Of a stretch of DNA of 32,098 bases, positions 16,722 through 31,640 are shown in pieces; the stretch's first letter is position 1, and every line of letters starts with the position of its first letter. The translations under genes and the position numbers were made by a program. The notes under the pieces are model-generated. The model was not told the origin of the DNA. It made no database searches and saw nothing but the letters and a program-made list of their open reading frames with translations. Source of the DNA: Candidatus Magnetocorallium paracelense (GTDB lineage Bacteria > Nitrospirota > Thermodesulfovibrionia > Thermodesulfovibrionales > Magnetobacteriaceae); NCBI GenBank assembly GCA_029001845.1, contig JAREWP010000046.1:1-32098 (forward strand), written 5' to 3'.

Positions 16722-17660
16722 ATGAAGGGAAAAAAGAATCAAACAGATTATGACAGCGGCTGGAAGGAAGTAATAGAGAACTATTTTGAAGATTTTGTGA
16801 ACTATTATTTTCCTGATGTTCATAGGGACATAGATTTTAATAGAGGAATAGAATTTTTGGATAAGGAGTTCAACAAGATAGTCAAAGAGTCTGAAGAGAA
16901 GAAAAGGTATACGGACAAACTGGTTAAGGTGTACCTTAAAACTGGAGAAGAGAAATGGCTATTGATCCACATAGAGGTGCAGGGAGCATATGAGGAAGGA
17001 TTTGAACTGAGGCTGTATGTATACAATTATAGAATTTACGATAGATATAAAAAGGAGGTAATAACCCTTGTAATATTGACAGATGAAGATGAAGAGTATC
17101 GTCCTGAAGTATATGAGGTAAAGAGGTGGGGTTTTGAGCTCAGGTGCAGATTTCCCGTGATAAAGCTTATAGATTACAAAGACAGGATAGAGTTAAAGGA
17201 TACAAAGAACCCCTTTGAAGTTATAACATACGCCCATTTAAAAAATCTGGAAACAAAAAGGGATGGAGAAAAAAGGTTATTCAGCAAGATAACAATAGTT
17301 AAGTCGCTCTATGGACTGGGATATAGTAAAGAAGATATACTGAATTTATATAGGTTCATAGACTGGATAATGGGTTTACCGGAAGAATTGTCAAGAAAAT
17401 TCCATGAGGAAATAACAAAATATGAGGAGGAGAGAAAGATGCCATTTATAACGACAGCAGAAAGAATCGGAATGAAAAAGGGAATGAAAAAGGGAATGGA
17501 AAAGGGAATGGAAAAGGGAATGGAAAAAGGAAAAGGAGAAGACATAGTAAAGTTGTACAAAAGAGCAAATATGCAACCTGAGAGTATCGCCGATATATTA
17601 GAGCTTGACATAAACTTTGTCAAAAATATTTTAAAAGAGAAATGTCTTTACAGAGCTTAA
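16722..17660 (+). CDS. Rpn family PD-(D/E)XK nuclease / putative transposase-like protein
   Basis: The 312-residue protein (from the ATG at 16722; a GTG two codons upstream is possible) matches the Rpn/YhgA-like group linked to RecA-independent recombination. The N-terminal half carries the nuclease core: RYTDKLVKVYL (Asp65) and WLLIHIEVQG (Glu85, Gln87, where Lys is usual in other PD-(D/E)XK enzymes). The C-terminal part has the typical GMKKGMEKG low-complexity repeats, then a short helical tail. The repeats come from five 12-base units at 17469-17528. A small hairpin (16694-16712) precedes the start. Base use is A-rich compared with the neighbours. Such genes are often multicopy; activity here is unproven. 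Confidence 0.85.
   Translation: MKGKKNQTDYDSGWKEVIENYFEDFVNYYFPDVHRDIDFNRGIEFLDKEFNKIVKESEEKKRYTDKLVKVYLKTGEEKWLLIHIEVQGAYEEGFELRLYVYNYRIYDRYKKEVITLVILTDEDEEYRPEVYEVKRWGFELRCRFPVIKLIDYKDRIELKDTKNPFEVITYAHLKNLETKRDGEKRLFSKITIVKSLYGLGYSKEDILNLYRFIDWIMGLPEELSRKFHEEITKYEEERKMPFITTAERIGMKKGMKKGMEKGMEKGMEKGKGEDIVKLYKRANMQPESIADILELDINFVKNILKEKCLYRA
17469..17528 (+). repeat. Five tandem 12-bp units inside the Rpn gene
   Basis: Units GGAATGAAAAAG (twice) then GGAATGGAAAAG or near-identical (three times), in frame and encoding G-M-K/E-K. Copy-number change would keep the frame because each unit is 12 bases. Confidence 0.9.
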
Positions 17661-20558: not shown

Positions 20559-21833
20559 ATGATTACAATAAAGAAATTATGTAAAGTATTAATAGTCGTT
20601 TCCATTTTATTCCTCATCGACTCCATTACCGTAAAAAAAGCTTTTTCCTCCAATCTCTCGTTTACATCAAAGTCATACATACAATTCGATGAAGACGGGC
20701 TGGATGAGAACCAGACGAAATTTAGCGAGTACATGGATCTGGAACTCTATAATCTATATGAAAACAGAGTAAGTTTCCATGTCAGCGGATGGTTTCGTGC
20801 GAATATGATAAATTTCGATGAAGACAGACGAGAGGACGAACGAGAAAAAGACGAGCTAACCTATGCATATATTAAATATAAACCGGTGGCGGACAAATCC
20901 CTTTATTTCCGCCTGGGAAGACAGTATATCTTCGGCGGAGTCGCTTCGGAGCATTTGGATGGAATCGCAACAGGGATGGATTTTACGGAATATAACGGAA
21001 TATCGCTGTACGGAGGGTTTCCTGTAGAAACCGAGGATGATGGCAGAGGAGCAGATTACCTCTATGGCGGCAGAATATTTCAAAGAATAGACAGAAAAGC
21101 CGAACTGGGAGTTTCCTATTTAAAAGAGGTTAACAGAGGCAGTTCCTTTAGGGAAGAAGCAGGTGTGGATATCTGGCTCATGCCCACAGGATACTTTGAA
21201 ATACAGGCTCAATCCTTTTACAACAGCCTTGAAAACGCCTGGATAGAACATACATGTACTGTAAGATCCGATGCTTTGGACACAATTGTCTTAACAGCCT
21301 TTTTCTCTTATATCGATTATGAAGGAACCTTTTACGGTGAAACGACAAGCGCCTTTTCAGACTTACTGATGCCCGATGACGAAGATTCTGTCAGAGCAGG
21401 GGGCTCTGTAGAGAAGAGCTTATTTAATGACAGGTTAACAGTTCTGTTCGATTATACGAATTACTCCTTTCATGACTCTGAAGACGCCGATTACTACGGC
21501 CTGAAACTTCGCTTAAACATTTGGGGGGCAAGACTGGGCGCTTCTGTCTACAGGATGGACGGAGAGACCGGCAGGCTTAAATATATCCAGTCCAGGGCGT
21601 ATGCTATTAAATCATACAATAAATCCGATATTTCCCTTGAAGTCTTTAGCGTTAATTACGACGAACCTTACAATGGGTTAAGAACTGCATACTCCTTTAA
21701 CAGTACAATGGGCTATAATATTACCGATAATATCAGAACTGAAGGATATGTGGATTACTCCAAAACGCCCGATTTATCTCATAATGTAAAGGCGATTGTA
21801 AAACTCATCTATAATCTGGACAGGGAAATCTGA
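20559..21833 (+). CDS. Outer-membrane beta-barrel (porin-like) protein of a cytochrome conduit
   Basis: The 424-residue protein starts with a signal peptide (KK, hydrophobic core to about residue 20, cleavage near AFSS). The mature part alternates short polar and aromatic strands, for example LYFRLGRQYIFGG, AELGVSYLKEV, DRLTVLFDYTNYSF and a final AIVKLIYNLDREI, and has acidic loops (DEDRREDEREKDE), which is the pattern of an outer-membrane barrel. Its stop overlaps the start of the periplasmic pentaheme cytochrome (TGATG), and a lipoprotein cytochrome follows, so it probably forms the sheath of a porin-cytochrome complex as in MtrB- or ExtB-type systems. No specific family was recognised by sequence. 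The protein is well formed; function is inferred from context. Confidence 0.75.
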   Translation: MITIKKLCKVLIVVSILFLIDSITVKKAFSSNLSFTSKSYIQFDEDGLDENQTKFSEYMDLELYNLYENRVSFHVSGWFRANMINFDEDRREDEREKDELTYAYIKYKPVADKSLYFRLGRQYIFGGVASEHLDGIATGMDFTEYNGISLYGGFPVETEDDGRGADYLYGGRIFQRIDRKAELGVSYLKEVNRGSSFREEAGVDIWLMPTGYFEIQAQSFYNSLENAWIEHTCTVRSDALDTIVLTAFFSYIDYEGTFYGETTSAFSDLLMPDDEDSVRAGGSVEKSLFNDRLTVLFDYTNYSFHDSEDADYYGLKLRLNIWGARLGASVYRMDGETGRLKYIQSRAYAIKSYNKSDISLEVFSVNYDEPYNGLRTAYSFNSTMGYNITDNIRTEGYVDYSKTPDLSHNVKAIVKLIYNLDREI

Positions 21834-22297
21834 TGAACTATCGACTGAAACAATTATTTCTACCAATAATATTGCTCTTTTTGATAATACCATGCTTTGT
21901 TCAGGCTGAAAATGTAACGATACCGGACACCCATCCCTATGAGGTAACTGAAAAACCGGAGTGTAAGGAGTGCCACACTGATGACACGGGAGTATCATTA
22001 AAACCGATCGGAACATTTTCCCACAGTATGGACTGGCATAAAAGGCACAAGTTTCATGCATCGGAAAACGATCGCCTCTGCCGTTCCTGTCACAGAGTTT
22101 CCTTTTGTACTGACTGCCATTCATATAAAGAAGAAATGAGACCCAGCCTGAAATATTCAGGCTCTTCGGAACGATGGCTTCCTCACAGAGGAGATTATCT
22201 CTATCAACACCGTATAGACGGAAGAATCGATCCGGCCAAGTGTTTTAGATGTCACGGCAGACAAAACAACCAGAGGTGCAAAAGATGCCACAAATAA
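21833..22297 (+). CDS. Small periplasmic pentaheme c-type cytochrome
   Basis: The 154-residue protein has a signal peptide (cleavage after VQA, residue 25) and five CxxCH heme motifs (Cys44, 83, 92, 137 and 149). Additional His residues (HPYEV, FSHSMDWHKRHKFH, PHRGDYLYQH) could supply distal ligands for bis-His hemes. The dense packing of five hemes in about 130 residues implies an electron-wire function. It starts on the last base of the barrel gene stop, and the lipoprotein cytochrome starts inside its 3' end, so the three are translationally coupled. The most likely role is carrying electrons through or up to the outer-membrane barrel; the redox partner is unknown. Confidence 0.88.
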   Translation: MNYRLKQLFLPIILLFLIIPCFVQAENVTIPDTHPYEVTEKPECKECHTDDTGVSLKPIGTFSHSMDWHKRHKFHASENDRLCRSCHRVSFCTDCHSYKEEMRPSLKYSGSSERWLPHRGDYLYQHRIDGRIDPAKCFRCHGRQNNQRCKRCHK

Positions 22298-22974
22298 GGA
22301 CTTATAGTTTTCTTTTATATACCTTTATCCTTTTTGCCCTTTGTGCATGCGGGAGCGGTTCCGGCTCAAGCGACACATTCGAACCGGAATCAGGGCACCC
22401 CCTCACATGGTCCGACCCGTCTTCAGCCGGCGCTGCCGATTTCCACGGCACGGCAGTCAAGTCCGAATCCAATGACGCAGAACTATTGGATACAAGTACG
22501 GGAGAAGCTCTCTTTTCGGATAATTGCGCAGTCTGTCACGGAGACGACGGCAGCGGCGGCATAGGTCCCGACATCAGGGGTGTAACAGCCGATGAAATTG
22601 AAAACGCAGTGAACACAGTAACATTAATGTCAGGTTTCTCTTTCCTTGAAGAAAACGATCTCATCTCCCTTTCGGACTTTCTGGCAATTCAGGAAGACGA
22701 CGCCGAAACAGATGTGGAGGAACTTAATACCGCCTCCTGCACGGAATGTCACGGAGACGATTTGAATGGAGGAATTTCAGGAGTAAGCTGTTATGCCTGT
22801 CATAGCGGCCCCGGCGGTATTGCCGGCCATCCCGATGGCTGGGCATCAAAGAGCAGTGATACTTTTCATGGCAACTATGCAAATAACTTCAAAATTGCCT
22901 GCACTGCCTGCCATGGTGATGATTACACCGGCGACCTGGGTCCGAGCTGTTTTACCTGTCACGATTCGATATAA
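22285..22974 (+). CDS. Lipoprotein pentaheme c-type cytochrome
   Basis: I chose the ATG at 22285, because AGAGGTG sits at the right distance and the product then begins with a proper lipoprotein signal (hydrophobic segment, LCAC lipobox, Cys22). A GTG 12 codons upstream would add charged residues before it. The mature 208 residues open with an acidic, Ser/Gly-rich linker, then a class I-like monoheme domain (LFSDNCAVCHGDDGSGGIG, with a Met-rich LMSGF segment) and a C-terminal part with four more CxxCH sites (CTECH, CYACH, CTACH, CFTCH). It is probably anchored in the outer membrane, facing out or in, and completes a barrel/periplasmic/lipoprotein trio of the extracellular-electron-transfer type. 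Confidence 0.85.
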   Translation: MPQIRTYSFLLYTFILFALCACGSGSGSSDTFEPESGHPLTWSDPSSAGAADFHGTAVKSESNDAELLDTSTGEALFSDNCAVCHGDDGSGGIGPDIRGVTADEIENAVNTVTLMSGFSFLEENDLISLSDFLAIQEDDAETDVEELNTASCTECHGDDLNGGISGVSCYACHSGPGGIAGHPDGWASKSSDTFHGNYANNFKIACTACHGDDYTGDLGPSCFTCHDSI

Positions 22975-23060: not shown

Positions 23061-23495
23061 ATGAGAACAAAATACTTCACTCTTATTTTATTAAGCTCAA
23101 TCCTATTCACCTTACCCTCTTGCGCTAAAAAGAAGCTGACTCCGACTCCCTTTGAAGCAAGGATAGGAAATACGTCGGTGAGTGTTATGCAGGAATTCAA
23201 GGACGCCTATGAAGACAGAGATATTTCTGAAATGAGAAGACTCTCGACATCGGACGGATTCAGGCAGATAAGTGTTCTAATGAAGGACTTTGACATAGCC
23301 GAACTCGATCTCAACCCCAAATGGCTAGACATAAAGGACAAGGAAATCCTTCTCTACATGTCATGGAAAGGAAAGTGGATAAAAAACAACGACACTACAA
23401 ATGAGAGAGGCCTTGCTCTTTTCATATTAAAAAGAGACAGTATGCGTCTTGATCAGGTTATGAGATCAAGCCCCTTCATCTATCCTCTGGATTAA
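23061..23495 (+). CDS. Small lipoprotein, possibly NTF2-like fold
   Basis: The 144-residue protein has a signal with LPSC lipobox (Cys21 region), so it should be lipidated. The mature part contains a helix-rich start (MQEFKDAYEDRDISEMRRL) and then beta strands (KEILLYMSWKGKWI, LALFILKR), as in NTF2/SnoaL-like domains; this is a weak structural guess. It lies 87 bases after the cytochrome trio on the same strand and may be part of the same transcript. No catalytic residues can be named. Confidence 0.6.
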   Translation: MRTKYFTLILLSSILFTLPSCAKKKLTPTPFEARIGNTSVSVMQEFKDAYEDRDISEMRRLSTSDGFRQISVLMKDFDIAELDLNPKWLDIKDKEILLYMSWKGKWIKNNDTTNERGLALFILKRDSMRLDQVMRSSPFIYPLD

Positions 23496-30148: not shown

Positions 30149-30433
30149 CTATGCATACTTCATTCTTGTTGCGTTGCCCGTGCCTACCCGTCTTTCTTTG
30201 TTACTCGTATATATAAGAACGTCCTCATTGTGATTGAGTTGATCACATTTTCCACAAATATGATCCTTAAAGTCTCCATTCAAATGTAAATCTCTCAATT
30301 TCCTGAGTTTCTCGCCTGCAATGACCTGGGAAACGCATTGTGTCCGCAAATCTCCTAAAACGACATCTTTATTGTAACGGAAGTTCCCCCCTGCCTGAAG
30401 GATGCCGGATGGCGGCAGAGCCTTATTTTTCAA
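30149..30433 (-). pseudogene. C-terminal fragment of a radical SAM/SPASM protein
   Basis: The 94-codon frame ends with a segment typical of SPASM tails in radical SAM enzymes: NKDVVLGDLRTQ, VIAGEKLRKLRDLHLNGDF and ICGKCD, where the Cys pair binds an auxiliary iron-sulfur cluster. The catalytic radical SAM barrel with CxxxCxxC is absent. Upstream in its own direction the sequence changes into the transposase end at about 30423, so the gene was cut by the insertion sequence. The first ~10 codons (MKNKALPPSG) are probably IS-derived. The 5' portion is not in this window. Confidence 0.65.
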
Positions 30434-31640
30434 TGGATTTTCGCTGAGACTGCAATTTTTTTCTCGTGACTACAGGCACCTCTCTGTGAGGCAGAACGGA
30501 GGGCATTTTAATATTAAGAGCTTTTAACAGTGCGGCATTACTGTCTGAAGGTGTCTGAATTCTAAGGCAGGAGCCCTGATCTTTTATTTTAACCTCAGTG
30601 GCGCAAAGCATTGACAACTGCTTTAAACCTTCCTCCACTGTCAGGTCAAATTCAAACCATGCCTGTTTGAGTTTCTTTGCAATCATATAGGCGAGCATAA
30701 CTGTAAATACATGGGCGCGGGTGCTCTTTTCAGTCCTTACATGCACGGGTCTTACCTCCAACAGTCCTGTCTTTCATGTCCTGAAAGCCGGCTCCACTTC
30801 CGTTAAATCCTTATACCTGTCATGCACTGTCTTTTTATCCGCCGACTCCTCCGGTAAATCCGTCTTTATAACATAGCATCCGTCCAGGGCCATCTCTTCT
30901 TCAAGGGTCTTCATATCCGGTTTCAGCTTTATTTCCCTTCCCGTAATCTCTGCCGTTAACCAACCCTCTGTTTTCAGCTTCTTTATTTTAGCCGTAACAT
31001 CCCTCTGCGCTTTCTCGGCAGACGCCTTGGGATGCTCTTTGAGATAAGTGTTTTTTTCTCTTACAAACTCCTCAATACCGTCAAGCTTGGACTGCCGGGT
31101 CGCAGCAAGCTCTTCCTGCCTGACAGGATTTCTTCTCAATATGTATCTGATCCTGCCCTCTTTTATCTCACACAACTGACTGTCAAACAAATTTAACTGA
31201 AACACTCCCTCTTTAATCATCTTATTTATCTGCGGCTTTGTGATTGCCGTTATATAATGAAAATCTTCAGGCAGCTCTTTTATCTGCGTGCTTTTTATCA
31301 TTCCTCTGTCACCGACAAAGGTTACTGTCCTGCATCCGAATCTCTCAGCAGCCTTCTTCACCTGTGAAGAAAAGGTCGTCTGATCCTGTGTGTTGCCGTG
31401 AAACACCTCCACGGATACCGGATCCCCCTCCTCGTCACACAAAAGACAGACCACTATCTGCTTCTTTCCCTTCTTGCCGTCACTGTTGTAACCGTAATCT
31501 CCGAAATAATTCTCCTGCCCCGGAACTCTTTTATTTAATACGTTTTCAGTAATTACCGGATTCGTTTTCTTTAGTATCTCTTTTAAAATTACATATCGAG
31601 AATCATCGAAAAACTCACTTAATACATCGGTTATGATCAC
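30423..31640 (-). pseudogene. IS1634/IS4-family transposase, N-terminally truncated and split by an in-frame TGA
   Basis: The first part (31640-30774) carries DYGYNSDGKKGKKQIVVCLL, VEVFHGNTQDQTTF, FVGDRGM and the AFRT just before a TGA at 30774-30776. The same frame continues after the TGA as KTGLLEVRPVHVRTEKSTRA, HVFTVMLAYMIAKKL, to 30423. These are the ordered marks of IS1634-type DDE transposases, in which AFRxLK is followed by LEVRPV; a single T-to-G change from a Leu TTA codon would give this TGA. The N terminus lacks the usual region with the first catalytic Asp (DvTS) and instead shows ~35 residues I cannot place. The element is therefore dead by two defects. Confidence 0.8.

Follow-up and report, generated by a model that had tools for sequence, protein, structure and literature searches.

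The closest described relatives of the locus studied here are the Pcc porin-cytochrome complexes, whose periplasmic cytochromes carry 5–14 hemes and whose porins have 18–22 strands (Shi et al. 2014; PMC4245776); for those of Geobacter sulfurreducens, electron conduction has been shown in proteoliposomes (review, PMC4589669). Geobacter OmbB–OmaB–OmcB clusters encode, in this order, a porin, a multiheme cytochrome and a lipoprotein cytochrome. Five-heme periplasmic cytochromes have been reported from Geobacter sp. M18 (clusters GM18_3461–3463 and GM18_3467–3469), and a total of six hemes was argued to be too few for spanning the membrane (PMC4245776). Encoded in the window, by which we mean the whole 32,098-nucleotide stretch of Candidatus Magnetocorallium paracelense DNA analysed here, is a trio of overlapping genes with the same order as OmbB–OmaB–OmcB.

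The porin and pentaheme genes overlap by 1 base (21833) and the pentaheme and lipoprotein genes by 13 bases (22285–22297; Table 1), the ATG of the lipoprotein gene (22285) falling within heme motif 5 of the pentaheme gene, as it likewise does at 55 of 81 loci. The longest reading frame of the lipoprotein begins at 22249; this start was rejected because a lipoprotein signal (LCA↓C) results only from the start at 22285 (MPQIR...). The pentaheme has a leader of type I (PCFVQA↓ENV), and the mature trio comprises ~394 (porin), 129 (pentaheme) and 208 (lipoprotein) residues with ten hemes in total. A preliminary description of this DNA had given the same coordinates, overlaps, signal peptides and 5 + 5 CxxCH motifs, all exactly reproduced here, and its range of ~130–210 mature residues per cytochrome agrees with the ~129 and 208 found. 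In 20,000 shuffles of the mature pentaheme sequence the number of CxxCH motifs never exceeded two, so that five in 129 residues are far beyond chance. The calculated pI values (porin 4.6, pentaheme 8.7 and lipoprotein 4.05) are consistent with a basic wire flanked by acidic proteins. A search for an operon terminator within and after the trio gave none above chance. Located 86 bases past the trio (window 23061–23495) is a gene for a 144 aa lipoprotein with no Pfam or NCBIfam family, possibly part of the same operon.

Table 1. Features of the gene trio (window coordinates).
Feature	Coordinates	Strand	Description
Porin gene	20559..21833	+	424 aa including signal peptide; predicted outer-membrane 22-strand β-barrel; Pcc porin, OmbB-like
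Pentaheme c-type cytochrome gene	21833..22297	+	154 aa, ~129 mature; short OmaB-like; signal peptidase I type leader
Lipoprotein cytochrome gene	22285..22974	+	229 aa, 208 mature, five hemes; lipobox LCA↓C; presumably outer-surface
Pentaheme heme motif 1, CKECH	21962..21976	+	From sequence; invariant in 68 homologs
Pentaheme heme motif 2, CRSCH	22079..22093	+	From sequence; invariant in 68 homologs
Pentaheme heme motif 3, CTDCH	22106..22120	+	From sequence; invariant in 68 homologs
Pentaheme heme motif 4, CFRCH	22241..22255	+	From sequence; invariant in 68 homologs
Pentaheme heme motif 5, CKRCH	22277..22291	+	From sequence; invariant in 68 homologs
Class I monoheme cytochrome c domain of lipoprotein	22468..22692	+	Pfam PF13442; heme motif CAVCH at 22525–22539
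Four c7/c3-like hemes of lipoprotein (CTECH, CYACH, CTACH, CFTCH) in two diheme repeat units	22738..22962	+	Pfam PF14522/PF14537; alignment

Invariant positions across 68 pentahemes include the five CxxCH motifs and, outside these, exactly five histidines (H34, H64, H72, H118 and H126). As this is the number of additional ligands needed, all five hemes are probably bis-His ligated. The structure model of this putative wire is of moderate quality (pLDDT 71.5); it was left out of the geometry, and a Foldseek search with it gave no fold match in the PDB, a negative that says nothing at this model quality. In most homologs the pentaheme bears a lipobox (50 of 68 by a strict pattern and about seven more by eye), so its placement could differ between clades. 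In the pentaheme tree the window groups with L013, L002, L003, L014 and L015 (SH-aLRT 94, an open fork), and all of these, the window included, have the class I domain and no pentaheme lipobox. A long wire variant is encoded at L115:1234–2736 (minus strand), where a 500 aa, 19-heme cytochrome with a pentaheme core amid extra heme repeats adjoins a porin-like ORF fragment.

The porin belongs to no Pfam or NCBIfam family. Its AlphaFold2 model, built with 81 porins in the alignment, has 22 strands (mean pLDDT 91.6); the preliminary description would have been undermined by a model that did not close into a β-barrel, and such an outcome was not seen. The best matches by VIA-align are 22-strand barrels of TonB-dependent receptors (Z 17–20, 3.5–4.8 Å over ~335–355 residues), and MtrB is not among the VIA structural matches, a shared fold still being possible. 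Judged by residue ranges, the plugs of the matched barrels amount to ~133 residues in BtuB (134–594) and ~157 in FhuA (158–725). A fit of the pentaheme inside the 22-strand barrel is plausible, since 129 residues plus five hemes come close to the size of a plug.

Homologous porins in relatives carry heme domains of their own. At the N terminus of the porin at L014:3248–4834 is a class I monoheme domain (PF00034, E = 2.7e-9), with a separate pentaheme gene downstream, and the porin at L021:2565–4844 continues into a C-terminal proline-rich linker and a class III tetraheme domain (PF02085, E = 9.5e-13). An ORF laid out like the latter, with four CxxCH motifs, lies at L026:2624–4930 and would be a single-chain barrel plus donor. 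The L014 and L021 fusions would attach a heme carrier to the barrel, in the simplest case at its periplasmic face, and cytochrome–porin fusions in relatives provide independent support for a conduit.

Within the lipoprotein, residues 70–133 match Cytochrome_CBB3 (Pfam PF13442, E = 7.8e-12). The six lipoproteins closest to that of the window share five invariant CxxCH motifs, His38, His54, His182, His195 and Met115, which fits one Met/His class I heme and four bis-His hemes, and the earlier reading of a class I-like domain coupled to four bis-His-type sites holds. Owing to its position between a ligand-bearing N-terminal GHxxxW...FH segment and the diheme repeats (CxxCHG...CxxCH), the class I domain looks like an insertion into the repeat unit. 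It is found in 8 of 68 outer lipoproteins, most family members being without it, and the outer module as a whole is variable among relatives, with 3–18 hemes and, in some, PKD or CHRD domains.

A protein search in 60 related genomes yielded homologs, four of them close, and an alignment search yielded 80 named loci, which with the window make the 81 loci surveyed, spanning Nitrospirota, Geobacterales and other deltaproteobacterial lineages. The trio is a conserved unit: a homologous porin lies immediately upstream of the pentaheme at 75 of the 75 loci with enough sequence to be testable, and a downstream multiheme gene (at least three heme motifs) is present at 75 of 79, so the three homologs do occur together, as the preliminary description had proposed to check. 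Exactly five CxxCH motifs are found in 80 of 81 pentaheme ORFs, the remaining one being cut by a contig end. An apparent absence of the porin at L022 was rejected, as the site is interrupted by an assembly gap (Ns) and part of a porin is still present; porin–pentaheme fusions suspected at L060, L038 and L079 are artefacts, in which the upstream portion of each ORF is a wrong-frame reading of the porin gene.

Counting places with E < 1e-40, the short form is present in 23 of 395 Nitrospirota genomes and, within the Citrifermentans bremense family, in 29 of 48, with more than one copy in Geomonas relatives. Its distribution in the window's family is patchy, since among 18 other genomes of that family in the protein search the system occurs only in Ca. 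Magnetomicrobium (G006; its locus corresponds to L016). In the genome that carries the window (6.0 Mb, 99.6% complete) no further member of the porin family was found, and a pattern search of that genome revealed few dense heme clusters. Directly 3′ of the trio in close relatives are genes for a 758 aa protein combining a cytochrome P460 domain with three class I c domains (L016:6286–8559) and for a plastocyanin-like protein (L017:6240–7013). Porin and pentaheme distances are strongly correlated (Mantel r 0.90) and either correlates less with the lipoprotein (0.46–0.50); the porin–pentaheme covariation may partly come from shared species history. The same pattern, with the porin and periplasmic cytochrome closer and the lipoprotein less so, has been reported for Pcc (PMC4245776).

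The weaker matches are cytochromes of 230–280 aa with 8–9 hemes, encoded beside porins of ~400 aa. The pentaheme profile aligns to the N-terminal five hemes of these long OmaB-type cytochromes (hhalign probability 99.7, E = 6.8e-26) and to the 8-heme protein of C. bremense (probability 99.2), and the short-form porins align over their full length with a long-form set of 14 porins that includes the Pcc-layout porin of C. bremense (probability 99.8, E = 2.6e-30). The family search suggested in the preliminary description leads to Pcc-layout long forms, with no match to a solved Mtr protein. The long form of C. bremense encodes proteins of 404 aa (the porin), 231 aa (a cytochrome with eight hemes) and 777 aa (a lipoprotein with twelve hemes), ordered as in the window trio; this is the published layout of OmbB–OmaB–OmcB (PMC4245776, PMC4589669), and identification of the long forms as OmbB–OmaB–OmcB rests on layout, not on G. 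sulfurreducens sequences. Because the pentaheme and porin profiles match the long-form cytochromes and porins, we assign the window trio to a short-wire branch: as judged from sequence, it is a branch of Pcc (OmbB–OmaB–OmcB) with a half-length wire.

Each component agrees with this assignment. The porin has 22 strands in the model and is related by profile to OmbB-type porins of 18–22 strands, the pentaheme combines five hemes with profile homology to OmaB-type periplasmic cytochromes of 5–14 hemes, and the product of the third gene has the lipobox and five CxxCH motifs of an adjacent lipoprotein multiheme cytochrome, as in most Pcc clusters. The putative wire has five hemes where OmaB has eight, and the outer cytochrome has five hemes and a class I domain where the OmcB type has twelve hemes. 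By their description, the GM18 clusters are similar in that a periplasmic five-CxxCH cytochrome adjoins a Pcc porin and the outer cytochrome, with one typical and five atypical motifs, is small; a class I domain goes unmentioned there (PMC4245776); the window trio totals ten hemes, as against the six questioned there. The preliminary description called this conduit minimal, which is apt for heme number but not for the barrel, whose 22 strands are at the top of the Pcc range. Its contrast with larger known systems likewise stands for the shorter wire but not within Pcc, where five-heme cytochromes have been known since 2014 (PMC4245776).

The working principle proposed here, a chain of bis-His hemes inside a barrel with a surface multiheme cap, is that of Shewanella MtrCAB (PMC7198977). 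The components differ, MtrA having ten hemes and the window pentaheme five, and MtrB having 26 strands and the porin model 22, so that neither is of the MtrA or MtrB type. Hemes A1–A5 of MtrA superpose on the pentaheme NrfB (PMC7198977). Pentaheme profiles gave no match to solved Mtr chains up to E 1, porin profiles no sequence match to solved MtrB, and PDB sequence searches with all profiles no true relative, nor any solved Pcc wire or porin. Pentaheme parts also exist in the Ext complexes of G. sulfurreducens, as the lipoproteins ExtC and ExtF and the periplasmic ExtK (PMC6148476). Heme count and gene content set the trio apart from extABCD and extEFG, in which the periplasmic cytochromes beside the porin (ExtA and ExtG) are dodecahemes whereas that of the window has five hemes. 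In extHIJKL a rhodanese lipoprotein accompanies a porin, ExtJ and the pentaheme ExtK; the window lipoprotein is instead a cytochrome and the trio is without a rhodanese gene. Although the L014 porin of a relative, with its N-terminal class I heme domain, has a layout like that of the single-chain monoheme cytochrome–porin fusion Cyc2, the window porin has no CxxCH motif and its pentaheme is a separate protein.

The trio very probably forms an electron conduit of the Pcc type that crosses the outer membrane with a half-length wire, as this best explains the gene order, the 22-strand barrel, the bis-His hemes, the homology to Pcc, the covariation of r 0.90 and the fusions. The same observations lend support to the conduit role, itself deduced, that had been put forward in the preliminary description. 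The porin would form its barrel in the outer membrane, with the basic ~15 kDa pentaheme sitting plug-like inside, so that five bis-His hemes make a chain across the membrane. Electrons from the periplasm would reach the pentaheme at the barrel's inner mouth, move down its chain of five hemes and pass to the four bis-His hemes of the lipoprotein, then to the class I heme and on to an outside partner, or run in reverse. The acidic lipoprotein, presumably exposed at the cell surface, would cap the barrel there and exchange electrons with an extracellular partner or substrate. If there were no conduit, with the pentaheme shuttling freely in the periplasm or anchored to lipid, the barrel serving ordinary diffusion or as a channel for a substrate, and the lipoprotein acting on its own, the lipobox of many pentaheme relatives, which could sit at the membrane face, would be accounted for, and the barrel model was built without a ligand; yet 22-strand barrels of known proteins are normally plugged, and the porin linkage at 75 of 75 loci, the covariation, the homology to the Pcc pair and the cytochrome–porin fusions make such an arrangement quite improbable.

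For the conduit itself, we slightly favour the outward direction. The nearest characterised Pcc runs outward, in Fe(III) reduction (PMC4589669), and donor-side genes vary among relatives, with none beside the window trio; both argue against inward flow, in which electrons from outside, supplied for example by a partner cell, Fe(II) or Mn(II), would be taken up by the surface lipoprotein and delivered to the periplasm by the pentaheme. Inward flow is nonetheless a serious contender, somewhat short of an even chance, as the class I heme, together with what close relatives encode after the trio (a plastocyanin in L017, a cytochrome P460/class I protein in L016), suggests high-potential partners, and PCC complexes of Nitrospirota have been proposed to serve Mn(II) oxidation (PMC9040806). 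Less likely, and on balance doubtful, is a surface redox enzyme module, in which the conduit feeds an extracellular reductase or oxidase on the lipoprotein (class I domain) or among the neighbours rather than minerals. Such a role would suit the outer module as the variable part (3–18 hemes, PKD/CHRD in some, class I in 8 of 68) and the enzyme-like P460-domain neighbour in L016, but by sequence all five hemes of the window lipoprotein appear to be six-coordinate, with no catalytic five-coordinate heme evident. We further suggest, tentatively and as a reading that falls somewhat below even chances, that the window stands for a high-potential branch of Pcc specific to Nitrospirota, combining a soluble five-heme wire, free of a lipid anchor, and a 22-strand barrel with a surface lipoprotein whose Met/His class I heme, inserted among bis-His hemes, serves as a step-up outlet or inlet for an extracellular partner of high potential. 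If so, no smaller heme chain crossing an outer membrane would be known.

Conduits of the five-heme kind are already known, their parts having been reported by Shi et al. in 2014; the trio is real and widespread. In the open-access literature searched we found no description of the Nitrospirota branch, of the class I insertion or of the porin fusions. Clusters of the 5 + 5 type are easily missed, because the automated MHCscan survey sets a minimum of 15 hemes for a cluster (PMC11475568) and would leave this one out. Determining a structure and reconstituting the complex are easier with this small family, represented in the window by ten hemes, than with the 8- or 10-heme systems, and the family offers a direct test of the minimum heme chain, given the doubt raised in 2014 that so few hemes span the outer membrane.

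Elsewhere in the window's own genome are octaheme cytochromes of 450–484 aa (L141, L142 and L145) that by eye are hydroxylamine oxidoreductase/nitrite reductase-like, and an operon that by eye resembles DsrMKJ. At the right end of the window (30149–31640, minus strand) is a transposase-like sequence split into several ORFs, and near the C terminus of a 314 aa predicted protein (window 17500–17600) is an in-frame short repeat (GMKKGMEKGMEKG).
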